Below, one piece after another: positions 13,431-48,574 of a DNA stretch of 64,000 bases. The stretch is taken from positions 1 through 64,000 of the forward strand of contig NZ_QXXA01000005.1 of assembly GCF_009911265.1 (NCBI RefSeq). Direction: 5' to 3'. Position numbers and translations under genes: made by a program. Source of the DNA: Senegalia massiliensis (GTDB taxonomy: Bacteria > Bacillota > Clostridia > Tissierellales > SIT17). Position 1 is the stretch's first letter. Each line of letters opens with the position of its first letter. The notes beneath the pieces are model-generated. The model did no database searches, had not been told where the DNA came from, and worked only from the letters and a program-made list of their open reading frames with translations.

Positions 13431-13832
13431 TCATCTTCTTTTCATATTTATTCTATTTATAGCTTTTTTAAGTGCAATCTCTGCTCTCTGTGCATCCATA
13501 TCACTTTCTTTTCTCTTTAATCTTTCTTCTGCACGCTTTTTAGCTAATTCTGCACGATTTAAATCTATTTCTTCTGGCCATTCTGCTGCATCTGTAACTA
13601 TTGTTGTTTTCGTTTTTGTAACATCTAAATAGCCTTCTGCAACTGTTGCCTCACGATATTTACCATTTTGTTTTATCTTTACTCTGCCTATTGCAAGAGG
13701 TGTTACATAAGGAGTGTGATTTTTTAATATTCCCACATCACCTTCTAAACCCCTAACTACTACCATTTCAACTTCATCTTCAAAGAATTTTCTATCTGGA
13801 GTTACTATTTCGAGATCAAATGTAGCTGACAT
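13431..13832 (-). CDS. atpC: F-type ATP synthase epsilon subunit
   Basis: 133-residue central-stalk subunit. The N-terminal beta-barrel begins FDLEIVTPDRKFF and contains LEGDVGILKNHTPYVTPL; the C-terminal helical hairpin (about residues 90-133) is the usual inhibitory domain. It is the last gene of the atp operon, ten bases after atpD, and is followed by a strong terminator. Confidence 0.96.
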   Translation of the reverse strand: MSATFDLEIVTPDRKFFEDEVEMVVVRGLEGDVGILKNHTPYVTPLAIGRVKIKQNGKYREATVAEGYLDVTKTKTTIVTDAAEWPEEIDLNRAELAKKRAEERLKRKESDMDAQRAEIALKKAINRINMKRR

Positions 13833-43858: not shown

Positions 43859-45451
43859 TTAAATTTTTATCCACAAAATCATTACTACTATAAAGGTTAT
43901 TAACATTATATTTGTAGTAGAAAATGATAAATTCACATGTCTTAATTTCTTTATTATTTTGTAGTCTTTTTCTATTATAAGTTTAAATATTATATATCCT
44001 AAAAATACATTTAATATATAATCAATTATATAACCCATGTCAAATATATTTAAATAAGATACTTCTATTCCAAATAAATTTAACATTATACTTTTTGAAA
44101 ATAATCCTAGAGACAAACAAGTTATAGCTAATATGCCAATAGAAGTTTCACTTGTTCTATGGTGTAATTTGTTTACATTAGAATGACCAAAAAATATCTG
44201 AGAAAATTTTACAAATGAAATTATAGTGCCTAAATTAAGCAAGTTTAACATATTTATTTTTAAACTACTTCCATAAAGTCCATGCTTTATTATTGTTTTA
44301 CTTACATATCCATTAAATAAAGGTGCCCCTGTTATAGATAATATACCAATTATCATAAATATAGAGATAATTGGTGAATCCCTAAAAACGCCTCTTATTT
44401 CTGTAACGCGTCTTGAACCATATCTATTTATAAGTATTCCTGCTGCTAAAAATAGTAATGTCTTAAATATTGCATGATTAAATACATGTAGTGTTCCACC
44501 AATCAAAAGTTCTCCTTCCATAGCACTTATTCCCATAAGCATAATACCTATTTGAGATATTGTATGAAAAGCTAAAATTTGCTTTATATCTTTTTGAGTT
44601 AATGCAAACAAGACACCTAAAAATCCAGTTGCAAAACCTAATAAAAAGAAAAAATCATTTAATAGATCTATATTAAACATCTGATTCATCCGAATAAATG
44701 CATATAATCCACTTTTTACGAGCAGTCCTGAAAGTAAAGCTGATACTCCAGATGGTGCAGCACTATGGGCTCTTGGAAGCCAATTGTATACTGGAAAAAG
44801 TGCTGATTTTACTCCTACTGCTGCCATTATAAATACATAGGATAATTTAACTATATTTGTATCTCTAAAAAATTCTATTTTAACTTTTATTGTGTCCATA
44901 TTAAGTGTACCTGTAAATGAATATAATAAAATTAATCCTAATAGATAAAATAATATGCCTACTGAATTAAAAGCAAGATAATAAAGCCCTGCTCTCACTG
45001 AAAAACCATCTTTTTTATATATTATAAGTATTGTTGAAAGTATTGTTATTATATCTAATACAACAAAAATGTTAAAAAGGTCATTACTAAATAAAAGTGC
45101 TATAAATGCTCCTTCTAGAAATAATAAAAAGAATAAAAACTTATATTCATGTTCTCTTTTATTCCAGCTATATAGTATTATTAAAGTCCAAATAAATATT
45201 GTAAGTGCTACAAAAACCATACTAAGATTATCAATTAGAAATGTAATTCCAATTGCTTTATTCCATGGTCCTAATGTGAATATATGTTTTCTTCCTATAG
45301 TTATAAAATACTTTGAATAAAGTATGTATAAAATTATATTTGTAATCTGGGTTACAAATGCCAAGTAATTTATTCTTCTATCATGTACTAAGTATATTAT
45401 CATTGCTGAAAAAATTGGTATAAATATTAAAAATATCGGTATAAATTTCAT
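43859..45451 (-). CDS. mrpD: Mrp/Mbh antiporter subunit D (NuoL/M-like, MrpD/MbhH)
   Basis: 530-residue proton/cation-translocating membrane subunit with about fourteen segments. Conserved parts are LLFLEGAFIALLFSNDLFN with the TM5 Glu, the helix GVKSALFPVYNWLPRAHSAAPSGVSALLSGLLVKSGLYA with the Lys, and HVFNHAIFKTLLFLAAG. It belongs to the complex I antiporter-like family. It is the last gene of the operon. A collapsed second copy lies directly upstream. Confidence 0.92.
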   Translation of the reverse strand: MKFIPIFLIFIPIFSAMIIYLVHDRRINYLAFVTQITNIILYILYSKYFITIGRKHIFTLGPWNKAIGITFLIDNLSMVFVALTIFIWTLIILYSWNKREHEYKFLFFLLFLEGAFIALLFSNDLFNIFVVLDIITILSTILIIYKKDGFSVRAGLYYLAFNSVGILFYLLGLILLYSFTGTLNMDTIKVKIEFFRDTNIVKLSYVFIMAAVGVKSALFPVYNWLPRAHSAAPSGVSALLSGLLVKSGLYAFIRMNQMFNIDLLNDFFFLLGFATGFLGVLFALTQKDIKQILAFHTISQIGIMLMGISAMEGELLIGGTLHVFNHAIFKTLLFLAAGILINRYGSRRVTEIRGVFRDSPIISIFMIIGILSITGAPLFNGYVSKTIIKHGLYGSSLKINMLNLLNLGTIISFVKFSQIFFGHSNVNKLHHRTSETSIGILAITCLSLGLFSKSIMLNLFGIEVSYLNIFDMGYIIDYILNVFLGYIIFKLIIEKDYKIIKKLRHVNLSFSTTNIMLITFIVVMILWIKI

Positions 45452-45462
45452 AAATTACCTCC

Positions 45463-45629
45463 CTAAAAAACCCAAACCCATATGATCATAAATACGACAG
45501 TAACTAATGAAATCGCATTTGTATTTTCAAAGGATAGATTATAATTTCTTATTTTAATGTGAAAAACTCTATATAATTTAAATCAACTCTAAATATAGCT
45601 ATAAGGATTAGAATAGGTGCAAAATCTAT
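45463..45629 (-). pseudogene. Remnant of a second mrpD-like gene (internal deletion)
   Basis: Between mrpC and mrpD, 167 bases read as a collapsed gene. After GGGAGGG, ATA (where ATG is expected) opens a frame starting IDFAPILILIAIF, like the N-terminus of MrpD proteins. It soon stops, and another frame then reads FKLYRVFHIKIRNYNLSFEN, followed by a hydrophobic helix and a stop 11 bases before mrpD. That tail parallels the MrpD C-terminus (NLSF ... T-N ... MILW). About 440 codons appear to be lost. Alternative: chance similarity in a short spacer, which I think unlikely. Confidence 0.7.
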
Positions 45630-45631
45630 AA

Positions 45632-45967
45632 TTATCCCTCCCTATCAAAAAGCTCCTTCCAACTAAGGGTACCATAATAATGAAATACTTTTATAGCTAA
45701 CATGAGAGATAATGCAGTGATACTTGCTCCTATTACTATTGTTGTTATCATAAGAGCTTGTGGAATAGGATCTACTATTTTTTCCGCTATTCCATTTAAA
45801 ATAGGTATTTCTCCTCCTTCTGTTGCTCCAATACTTAAAAACAATAATATTATTGCTGCTTGAGTTATATTTAAGGAAATAATTGTTTTGATTATCCCTT
45901 TACTAGTTGAAAGTCCGAAAAGTCCTATAAGTACTATTACAAATGAAAGTAATATTTCTAATTTCAC
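45632..45967 (-). CDS. mrpC: Mrp/Mbh antiporter subunit C (NuoK-like)
   Basis: 111-residue NuoK-like subunit with three membrane helices. The region LNITQAAIILLFLSIGATEGGEIP and DPIPQALMITTIVIGASITAL is characteristic of MrpC/MnhC/MbhG. It follows mrpB with no gap and precedes the mrpD remnant. Confidence 0.92.
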   Translation of the reverse strand: MKLEILLSFVIVLIGLFGLSTSKGIIKTIISLNITQAAIILLFLSIGATEGGEIPILNGIAEKIVDPIPQALMITTIVIGASITALSLMLAIKVFHYYGTLSWKELFDREG

Positions 45968-46372
45968 CTATTCACCCTCTTCCATAAATGTAGTCAATAT
46001 TGTTATAAGGCCTGTTGAAACCTTAATACCTATTAGAAAATTTAAGATTAATAAAAATATAGTTTTTACTCCCATACTCATATGTTCTGGAACAAAATTA
46101 GTAAAAAAGCTACCTCTAGTAAATATACTGGTCATTGCTACTAATATAATTATAAAAAAACTATATTTTTCTATTTTAACTAATATTACTATATCTTCTA
46201 ATATTGGTACTTCCACTATATATGTTATTAGTATAGCTGTTGCAAGTATTGCTCCTCCTTGAAATCCACCACCTGGAGATAAATGTCCATTGATTATAAC
46301 ATAAAACCCATATATCAGTATAAATGGAAATAAAATTCTACAAATACATGTTAAAATTTCGGATTTTTTCAT
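45968..46372 (-). CDS. mrpB: Mrp/Mbh antiporter subunit B (MrpB/MbhF)
   Basis: 134-residue membrane protein with the MnhB motif NGHLSPGGGFQGGAILATA, which is the family signature. Four membrane segments. It overlaps the small MbhE-like gene upstream by four bases and abuts mrpC. Confidence 0.92.
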   Translation of the reverse strand: MKKSEILTCICRILFPFILIYGFYVIINGHLSPGGGFQGGAILATAILITYIVEVPILEDIVILVKIEKYSFFIIILVAMTSIFTRGSFFTNFVPEHMSMGVKTIFLLILNFLIGIKVSTGLITILTTFMEEGE

Positions 46373-46629
46373 ATTACATCATCATCCCTTTTAGAAATAA
46401 AAATAATACCTGAAACTGTCACAAGAAGAAGTCCTGCTTCAAATAGTGAATCATATAATCTATAGTCTAAATATATTGCTGTTATAAGATTTTTAGAGCC
46501 TGTTTCTTCTAATCCATTATTAAACAAGTAATTTTTAGCGTAATTATCTACATCCAAATCTATCAAAATAGAAGAAAAACTTAAAAATATTATTACTAGA
46601 AGAATTATAGTTATAATTTTTTTAATCAT
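46369..46629 (-). CDS. MbhE-like small antiporter subunit
   Basis: 86-residue protein with two membrane helices and the central motif NLITAIYLDYRLYDSLFEAGLLL, which is typical of MbhE and of the extreme C-terminal part of MrpA proteins. I use the ATG at 46629, nine bases after AGGAGG; an ATG two codons earlier would be too close to it. It overlaps the preceding MbhD-like gene. Confidence 0.85.
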   Translation of the reverse strand: MIKKIITIILLVIIFLSFSSILIDLDVDNYAKNYLFNNGLEETGSKNLITAIYLDYRLYDSLFEAGLLLVTVSGIIFISKRDDDVI

Positions 46630-47158
46630 AAACATGTTCCTCCTCTACAAATTTCACCTTTACATCTTTATAGTCTCCACAAATTTTACTTAGTCTATTA
46701 GTAATAGTAGATGCTGGATTTCCTTTAAAGACATAATGTTTATCTTCTTTATATATAAATAAGTCCACATTTCTAACTCTAAATACTTCAAATGATATAT
46801 CATTTTTATCTTTTAAAAATACTAGTTTAAGTTGATAATAATCAGTTAATTCTTCTAATATTTTGTATCCTATTCCAGACTTACTTTCTATATCTAGAAA
46901 GCTATCTTCTACACTTCCTAATACTACAATAAACTCCTTTTGCTTAGATATAGCTATTATAAATATAAGGGGTATTATTGCACTTCCTATTGCAGCTTCA
47001 GCAAGTGCCAAGTCTGGTGCCCTATAAAAATAATAAAGAAGAGCTGAAATAAGAGAAAATACTGAAAAGAAAATAACTGATTTTAAATTATTTTTTAATG
47101 TTATTACCGTAATAGATATTATTATTAAAAAAACTTGAAGTAAAATTATTATATTCAT
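46622..47158 (-). CDS. MbhD-like antiporter subunit (DUF4040) with soluble C-terminal extension
   Basis: 178-residue protein. The first 75 residues form three membrane helices with YFYRAPDLALAEAAIGSAIIPLIF, the DUF4040/MbhD motif also found in the C-terminal part of MrpA. The last 100 residues are soluble and charged, containing FEVFRVRNVDLFIYKEDKHYVF, with no match I recognise. Standard MbhD subunits are about 90-100 residues, so the tail is extra. It overlaps mrpG by four bases. Confidence 0.82.
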   Translation of the reverse strand: MNIIILLQVFLIIISITVITLKNNLKSVIFFSVFSLISALLYYFYRAPDLALAEAAIGSAIIPLIFIIAISKQKEFIVVLGSVEDSFLDIESKSGIGYKILEELTDYYQLKLVFLKDKNDISFEVFRVRNVDLFIYKEDKHYVFKGNPASTITNRLSKICGDYKDVKVKFVEEEHVYD

Positions 47159-47463
47159 AATCTCTCCTTATCTGGTTTTGAAGGTATACCATTTAAATAT
47201 GCACTTCTTGCTATGATATGATTACTAACTGGACCTGTAAGTAGCATAAATACTAGTATTATAATAAGTCTTATTGATAATGTGTTTATTCCAACTTTAA
47301 ATATTAGAGCAAATATTATTGTAATAAAAGCCACTGTATCTATATTGCTACTAGTAAGTAATCTAGCATAAATATTTTTGAATCTATATATACCCAAAAC
47401 TCCAAAAAATATAAATATCCATGAAAGAAAAATTAAAATTATCGAAATAATATCAAATATCAT
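47155..47463 (-). CDS. mrpG: Mrp/Mbh antiporter subunit G
   Basis: 102-residue subunit with three membrane helices. The segments GVLGIYRFKNIYARLLTSSNIDTVAF and LTGPVSNHIIARSAYLNGI are family signatures. It overlaps mrpF by four bases. Confidence 0.92.
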   Translation of the reverse strand: MIFDIISIILIFLSWIFIFFGVLGIYRFKNIYARLLTSSNIDTVAFITIIFALIFKVGINTLSIRLIIILVFMLLTGPVSNHIIARSAYLNGIPSKPDKERL

Positions 47464-47720
47464 TTTTGTCTTCCTCCTCTAAGTAAAAATCTTGAAAGAA
47501 GCGTTATAGTCAAAAATCCTATGATCCCATAAGATATTGCAATATCTAAAAGCATTGAACTTTCTTTATATATTCCATATATTGTTATAAGAAGTATTGT
47601 ATGTGCTGAAATTAAATTAAGGCACATTAGCCTGTCCCAAAGAGTAGGCCCTTTTACCATTTTTATTAAAACAAAAAACATTGCAATTATCAAAACAACC
47701 ATAGTTATGATTAAAAACAT
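47460..47720 (-). CDS. mrpF: Mrp/Mbh antiporter subunit F
   Basis: 86-residue subunit with three membrane helices, including KGPTLWDRLMCLNLISAHTILL and YGIIGFLTITLLSRFLLRG, both typical for MrpF/MnhF. Located between mrpE and mrpG. Confidence 0.92.
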   Translation of the reverse strand: MFLIITMVVLIIAMFFVLIKMVKGPTLWDRLMCLNLISAHTILLITIYGIYKESSMLLDIAISYGIIGFLTITLLSRFLLRGGRQK

Positions 47721-47723
47721 ATA

Positions 47724-48209
47724 TCAATTCTCCTTTTTAATAAAGAGTTTTTCAAATTTCTCTTTGATATTTTTTTCTGCGTCTCCATTTTCATCTTGCC
47801 TTATATATAATACGATTAATTTGTTGTCTTTTTTATCTACAGTAATTGTCCCTGGTGTAAGTGTTATTGAATTAGCTACAAGTGTAATCAAAAAAGAATC
47901 TTTTAAATCTAGCTCTATCTCCAATATAGAAGGATCATATTCATCTTTTATTATGCTTTTCATCAGATCTATAGAAGATATATAAATTTCTGAAATAAGA
48001 ATAAATATGTACTTTATCCATGTATAAATACTAGGAAACGAAAATAAAAATCCGTTTTCAGTATATAGTAATCCATAAGACAAATAGGTTACTATAAAAG
48101 AAACTATAATCCCTCCTATTATATTTAAAATCTCTAAATTAAGAGTAAGTAACATCCAAAATATAAATAGAATAATAAACATCTTAGGGTGAAATTTCTT
48201 TACTTTCAT
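47724..48209 (-). CDS. mrpE: Mrp/Mbh antiporter subunit E
   Basis: 161-residue protein with two to three N-terminal membrane segments and a soluble C-terminus with LVANSITLTPGTITVDKKDN, the MnhE signature. The start overlaps the stop of the preceding gene by one base. It begins the EFG part of the operon. Confidence 0.92.
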   Translation of the reverse strand: MKVKKFHPKMFIILFIFWMLLTLNLEILNIIGGIIVSFIVTYLSYGLLYTENGFLFSFPSIYTWIKYIFILISEIYISSIDLMKSIIKDEYDPSILEIELDLKDSFLITLVANSITLTPGTITVDKKDNKLIVLYIRQDENGDAEKNIKEKFEKLFIKKEN

Positions 48210-48574
48210 TATTCCTCCTCTTTAAGCCCATTTTTTTCTTTTACGAGTATTATTTCTATATTTTCTCCATCATAATTAACATATGATTTATCTATAAGAC
48301 TTGCAATAAGGTATATATTTTCTTCTTCTATATCATCATATAATCCTTCATATAATAATAAAGTTATATCATAATCTTCATCTTTTTCAAGATACTCTCT
48401 TAATTTATCAACATTCTCTTTCTTTAAATTTTTTATATTACCTACCATTCTTATTCTCATGTATTCTTCATTATTATCTATATTTAAATCAATTTTTTTA
48501 GCATCTTTTTTAAGCATTATGGAAGTAAGAGAACAAACTATATTATAAATATCATGCTTTCCTCTATTTAACAT
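48209..48574 (-). CDS. Conserved-looking soluble protein of unknown function, first gene of the Mrp/Mbh operon
   Basis: 121-residue soluble, acidic protein with no membrane segment, no Cys-rich site and no motif I recognise. It looks like an alpha/beta domain (strands at IDLNID, IRMVGNI, ITLLLYEGL and IEIILVKEK). The ribosome site GGAGAGGTG and the one-base overlap with mrpE show it is a real, co-translated gene. It might be a regulatory or assembly factor for the antiporter; that is inference from position only. Confidence 0.75.
   Translation of the reverse strand: MLNRGKHDIYNIVCSLTSIMLKKDAKKIDLNIDNNEEYMRIRMVGNIKNLKKENVDKLREYLEKDEDYDITLLLYEGLYDDIEEENIYLIASLIDKSYVNYDGENIEIILVKEKNGLKEEE

Follow-up and report, generated by a model that had tools for sequence, protein, structure and literature searches.

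Remnant of a second mrpD gene in the mrpC-mrpD spacer of an Mrp operon of Senegalia massiliensis

What occupies the gap between mrpC and mrpD in the Mrp operon of Senegalia massiliensis? In the stretch of contig NZ_QXXA01000005.1 analyzed here (64,000 nucleotides, hereafter the window), 180 bases (45452-45631) separate the end of mrpC at 45632 from the start of mrpD at 45451, all on the minus strand. After a ribosome-site-like GGGAGGGATAATT, the spacer opens with ATA and continues as IDFAPILILIAIFRVDLN... up to a stop, and another of its frames reads NYNLSFENTNAISLVTVVFMIIWVWVF up to a stop. The adjoining intact mrpD ends in NLSFSTTNIMLITFIVVMILW, and its NLSF, T-N, and MI-W positions recur in that spacer frame. 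A sequence-only reading had taken these features for a collapsed second mrpD gene, with ATA for ATG, an MrpD-like start, and a frame switch to an MrpD-like tail, left behind by a single internal deletion of ~1.3 kb. As a test, it proposed looking in sister genomes for an intact second mrpD-like gene of ~490 codons.

An intact counterpart in a sister genome

We searched 60 genomes (the S. massiliensis genome included) with the window mrpD as query. The closest genome, G001, belongs to the same genus and gave two adjoining matches, which were 97% and 49% identical to the query. Its operon is collinear with that in the window, with 94.9% DNA identity over 3013 columns (reaching slightly into the spacer remnant described below) and 95.4% over 1856 columns beyond the spacer. 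The second match is an intact gene of 531 codons (L032:11846-13441), here named mrpD1, that starts 2 bp after the end of mrpC (L032:11843) and is followed, 11 bp past its own end, by the orthologue of the window mrpD (mrpD2, starting at 13453). The proposed test thus supports the collapse of a second mrpD, with an intact gene in place and flanks that match the window at ~95% DNA identity. Its product is a full-length MrpD (PF00361, E 3.4e-52), and the protein is 48-50% identical to the MrpDs of S. massiliensis and of two other members of the genus (G002 and G003).

When aligned to this gene, all 167 bases from 45463 to 45629 (minus strand) were accounted for, beginning with the altered start codon and finishing with the former stop codon, in four gap-free blocks with 161 of the 167 bases matching and 6 mismatches. 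The former start codon (45627..45629) is ATA in the window and ATG in G001. It opens block A (45613..45629), which corresponds to the first 17 bp of mrpD1 with 3 mismatches and is followed by an in-frame deletion of 1314 bp with 3 bp (TAT) common at the junction. Block B (45599..45612) comprises 14 bp, or 17 exact matches if the shared junction bases are counted, and a second in-frame deletion, of 27 bp with 4 bp (TATA) common at the junction, separates it from the 45 bp of block C (45554..45598; 2 mismatches, one of them at the junction). The third deletion, of 88 bp with 4 bp (TAAA) in common, is a frameshift, and block D (45463..45553) contains the last 91 bp of mrpD1, including the stop codon, with 1 mismatch. 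In total, 1429 of the 1596 bp of mrpD1 have been deleted, such that the three deletions leave exactly 167 bp. Since the 88-bp deletion breaks the frame, it explains the switch of frame seen in the spacer. The size foreseen for the loss is close to that of the main deletion, but there was more than one deletion. The 11 bases between the remnant and the surviving mrpD, a ribosome-site spacer (GGAGGTAATTT, 45452..45462, minus strand), are identical in G001. As the DNA is so A+T-rich, the 3-4 bp shared at the deletion junctions mean little.

Taken together, the loss of ATG, the 1429 missing bp, and the frameshift disable this mrpD reading frame. An intact, collinear gene occupies the same place in G001, and comparison with this one sister genome leaves the collapse all but proven. 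We therefore consider it very nearly certain that the spacer is a decayed mrpD1 pseudogene, and that the ancestor shared with G001 had a tandem mrpD1-mrpD2 pair in an Mrp operon that lacked mrpA. Each side of the comparison between the species rests on a single genome, that of G001 for the intact mrpD1 and that of S. massiliensis for the remnant.

Could the resemblance be fortuitous, the spacer being unrelated short intergenic DNA with a chance or low-complexity likeness to MrpD? The DNA is A+T-rich and translations of membrane proteins resemble each other, which gives this idea some footing, together with the weakest of the three separate DNA matches between the spacer and mrpD1 of G001 (186, 78, and 32 bits). 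The highest score among 300 dinucleotide shuffles of the spacer was 34.6 bits, and so the 186- and 78-bit matches are significant alone, whereas the 32-bit middle match falls inside the shuffle range and is not significant by bit score. However, when the first 45 spacer bases were shuffled 1000 times, an exact match of 17 bases, as in the middle block, never arose (longest, 14). For block A, with its 3 mismatches in 17 bp, identification rests on position beside mrpC. In addition, a six-frame search of the S. massiliensis genome with mrpD1 found the remnant (E 6.6e-12), in a match that has four stops and extends into the end of mrpC. With two matches far above the shuffle maximum and a position collinear with mrpD1 in G001, coincidence is scarcely credible. 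It is also very improbable that part of an intact mrpD1 was dropped from the contig during sequencing or assembly. The genome is indeed a draft of 53 contigs, but three deletions, the change of ATG to ATA, and further substitutions all fall within 167 bp, and the collapse of a repeat needs a single junction and near-identical repeats, whereas the mrpD1 and mrpD2 proteins are 48% identical.

Two other candidates were set aside. An RNA element in the spacer was tested by folding only, and the folding energy of the spacer was no better than that of its shuffles (z 0.39). A relocated second mrpD copy elsewhere in the S. massiliensis genome was not found by homology and PF00361 searches.

The remaining operon and its type

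The operon runs on the minus strand from 48574 to 43859. At its head lies a gene for a 121-aa protein (48209..48574), followed by mrpE (47724..48209; PF01899), mrpF (47460..47720; PF04066), mrpG (47155..47463; PF03334), an mbhD-like gene (46622..47158; PF13244), an mbhE-like gene (46369..46635), an mrpB-like gene (45968..46372; PF04039), mrpC (45632..45967; PF00420), the spacer, and the surviving mrpD (mrpD2; 43859..45451; 530 aa, PF00361). No Pfam family matched the mbhE-like gene, which was named by its position and by weak NCBIfam antiporter A/B matches below the curated cut-offs.

The 121-aa protein had no Pfam or NCBIfam match at E 0.001. Counterparts of 115-133 aa, 23-36% identical, are found ahead of mrpE in 8 genomes besides G001, and 3 of 10 members of this family weakly match HATPase_c (best E 0.04). 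The protein may act with these operons, either as a regulator or as a cytosolic partner.

In the S. massiliensis genome (3.10 Mb, 53 contigs), the 530-aa MrpD is the single PF00361 match; accordingly, the PF00361 search found neither mrpA nor a complex I antiporter subunit. With subunits E, F, G, B, C, and D together and no mrpA, the operon is, judged by its gene content, an MrpA-less Group 3 Mrp and a predicted Na+/H+ antiporter. Group 3 has been described as the MrpA-less stand-alone layout of Pyrococcus furiosus, at times with multiple mrpD copies (PMC8415708); a 2017 review defines it more loosely, by irregular gene order (PMC5703873). The stand-alone mrpEFGBB'CD of P. furiosus resembles the window in its order of subunits, E-F-G-(MbhD, MbhE)-B-C-D, without mrpA and with no redox module seen. 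The window differs in that one of two mrpD genes is wrecked and a 121-aa gene stands at the head. A tandem mrpD pair after mrpC, as in the G001-type operon, is also known from the mrpCD1D2EFGAB of Aphanothece halophytica (PMC5703873), although this far relative has mrpA and both mrpD genes, and the likeness is one of gene order and not of sequence.

Comparison with G001 showed that the eight remaining mrp genes are under purifying selection (dN/dS 0.045-0.146; mrpD, 0.055), with values similar to those of seven neighboring genes (0.015 to 0.163), and that the core of the operon continues to be used; evidently, a single MrpD suffices for the complex to work. The strength of constraint varies along the operon, since the 121-aa head gene had a dN/dS of 0.30 on 17 differences, above every other value among the 16 genes compared. 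Between the remnant and mrpD1, none of the 6 differences is synonymous (they comprise the start codon and residue-changing sites, one at a junction), and these sites are few and not polarized, whereas the 8 mrp genes of the same species pair have 45 non-synonymous and 159 synonymous differences. The two sets differ with a Fisher p of 1.6e-4, or 0.003 if the remnant differences are counted as 4 events, on these few, unpolarized sites. The remnant differences fit a loss of coding constraint, although part of the non-synonymous excess could have arisen on the G001 branch.

Key residues of the lost copy

We compared 56 distinct MrpDs at six positions (4 of 60 rows were dropped as the same genes from overlapping loci), with the E/K/K/H/K residues of MBS as a yardstick. 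The mrpD1 protein of G001 has Ala at the TM8 Lys position, where all other 55 of the 56 MrpDs have Lys, and Asn at the His of the PRAH loop, which is His in 54 of the 56. It retains the TM5 acid, TM7 Lys, TM11 His, and TM12 Lys. At columns invariant in the 55 others, mrpD1 alters 2 of 30, including the TM8 Lys, and other rows alter up to 3 of 31; by this measure it is no worse than some other rows and, going by its residues, is not wholly degenerate.

Counted on alignments, residue 250 in both 6u8y_H and 7qru_D stands at the TM8 Lys position; we take these chains to be MbsH and the MrpD of B. pseudofirmus, as their residue numbers match those in the papers. K250 of MbsH is described as belonging to the charged axis of MBS (PMC7684303), and Lys250 of MrpD as a member of a Lys-His-Lys triad along a proposed path for protons (PMC9568556). 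At two positions that mrpD1 retains, those on TM5 and TM7, the E137A and K219A mutations of MrpD have been reported to abolish activity while the complex is retained (PMC5703873). The missing TM8 lysine and a long branch suggest that, as a proton path, mrpD1 had probably been impaired before its loss in the window. Indeed, the mrpD1 branch measured 1.28 to 1.57 changes per column in trees of 33 and 23 rows, against median end branches of 0.31 and 0.22, and 1.45 in a further tree, against a median of 0.14. The mrpD1 of G001 is possibly an accessory, non-pumping MrpD.

The surviving MrpD of the window has its own substitution, Asp for Glu at the TM5 acid, which is present in 5 of the 56 rows, counting itself and its G001 orthologue. 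E137D of MrpD is listed among the mutants with a raised apparent Km for Na+ (PMC5703873).

We rejected the idea that every pair has one copy without the TM8 Lys, as both copies retain it in pairs other than that of G001. These comprise the copies of G043 and those of L061, together with the adjacent pairs in G364 (L081/L094) and G361 (L086/L096). The non-adjacent second copy of G019 also retains the TM8 Lys.

The course of events that we propose starts from a common ancestor with G001 in which mrpD1 would have lain directly after mrpC and ahead of mrpD2. In S. massiliensis, mrpD1 has since lost its ATG and, through three deletions that would have arisen by ordinary slippage or end joining, 1429 bp, and G001 retains both copies. 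Having presumably become dispensable as an already fast-evolving copy without the TM8 lysine on the proton path, mrpD1 would have left behind a complex that now runs on MrpD2 alone, like those of single-mrpD relatives. Ordinary deletion pseudogenes in tandem paralogues share the loss of the start codon, the several deletions, and a remnant in place, and nothing essential differs here. The remnant is mostly ordinary gene decay, with the twist that the intact copy of G001 is already without the TM8 Lys. Our search of the open-licence PMC literature returned no report of an mrpD pseudogene or of a duplicated or second mrpD in Mrp antiporters.

Origin and age of the mrpD pair

How common are such pairs? 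Across the order, such an MrpD was found (E up to 1e-60) in 21 of 249 genomes, that of S. massiliensis among them. At least 4 of the 21 gave two matches, which lie side by side in G001 and G043. A draw across the class also yielded an MrpD in 21 genomes, here out of 391 (S. massiliensis again included), and at least 3 of them carry two, which adjoin in G361 and G364. These copy counts are lower bounds, with up to 5 candidates per genome scored in the order and up to 3 in the class-wide draw. Locus L061 likewise carries an adjacent mrpD pair. Among 14 related operons, 10 have a single mrpD beside mrpC, a second copy is present in 3 (G001, G043, and G046), and 1 is cut by a contig end (G054). 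Extra mrpD copies thus seem to come and go. With single-mrpD operons in such a majority, the survey does not establish a two-mrpD form, as suggested by the sequence-only reading, as ancestral. Two of the other three members of the genus, G002 and G003, are among the 10 single-mrpD operons, and 1 base separates mrpC from mrpD in both, leaving no room for a remnant.

A different two-mrpD layout was observed in G046 (L036 9989-15490), where one mrpD is the first gene of the Mrp operon and the second, cut by the contig end, is the last. The same mrpD stands ahead of the small gene and mrpE in G054.

The sequence-only reading had also suggested that the ancestor may have had an operon of the Mbs/Mbx kind. 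On this view, the tandem pair would represent the H and H' subunits of a respiratory complex whose H' was lost. In MBS, the two antiporter-like subunits MbsH and MbsH' adjoin, as do those of the G001 pair, but MBS also includes a redox arm, and its H' is extended by further C-terminal helices (PMC7684303); there is no sign of either here. A search for PF00146 (NuoH-like) and PF01058 (NuoB-like) proteins found them in none of the 4 genomes of the genus, our own included, whereas 11 of 14 control genomes were positive for each. The mrpD1 protein, moreover, gave much stronger matches to MbhH (E 1.8e-47) and an MrpD chain (1.8e-44) than to the 618-aa MBS chain 6u8y_X (1.9e-24), which we take to be MbsH', and at 531 aa it is shorter than that chain. 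It also grouped with the four other MrpDs of the genus in three trees (support 100/99, 98/99, and 100/99), whose rows did not comprise MbsH' and MrpA. A tree with mrpD1 outside those four did survive the AU test on 33 rows (p 0.25), but with the redox markers absent and the genus grouping recovered each time, we regard an Mbs/Mbx-type origin as very unlikely and the suggested ancestry as unsupported.

As a refinement of the main explanation, the duplication may be older than the genus. Followed by differential loss, it would have left G003 with the mrpD1 type, G002 with the mrpD2 type, G001 with both, and S. massiliensis without mrpD1. We give this scenario serious weight while leaning slightly against it. 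In its favor, mrpD1 paired with the G003 mrpD in the three trees (91/90, 99/94, and 97/90), and joining mrpD1 with mrpD2 was barely rejected by the AU test on 23 rows (p 0.037), a set obtained by removing 10 of the 33 rows (long rows or extra copies); L052, L053, L059, and the distant L065-L073 had been left out of the 33-row tree. However, on 33 rows, the AU test rejected neither mrpD1+mrpD2 (p 0.21) nor G002+G003 (p 0.21) nor mrpD1 outside the other four; the two-two site patterns were almost evenly divided, with 16 for mrpD1+G003, 15 for mrpD1+mrpD2, and 8 for the remaining pairing; mrpD1 sits on a long branch; and the mrpD of G002 and G003 adjoins mrpC, as in outgroups. A tree of seven other operon proteins left the placement of G002 versus G003 unresolved. 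The trees, AU tests, and site patterns allow both a species-level and a genus-level duplication.

A bolder extension, which we think rather unlikely and put forward as speculation, is that the genus had an unequal MrpD pair from its origin, with one copy retaining the whole proton path and mrpD1 drifting toward a lysine-less accessory or structural subunit, and that repeated, partly reciprocal losses followed. If true, the window would show one such loss in mid-decay and, together with G001, would provide a before-and-after pair for the role of a second MrpD without MrpA. One article on these systems says that the driving force of the MrpA-less Mrp of P. furiosus remains unknown and that the effects of differing Mrp operon layouts have been little studied (PMC8415708). 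Apart from what it offers to such comparisons, the decay of mrpD1 is routine. What it does offer is a clean natural comparison: a pair of species that differ by one MrpD copy in an operon that is ~95% identical, the extra copy being without the central lysine.
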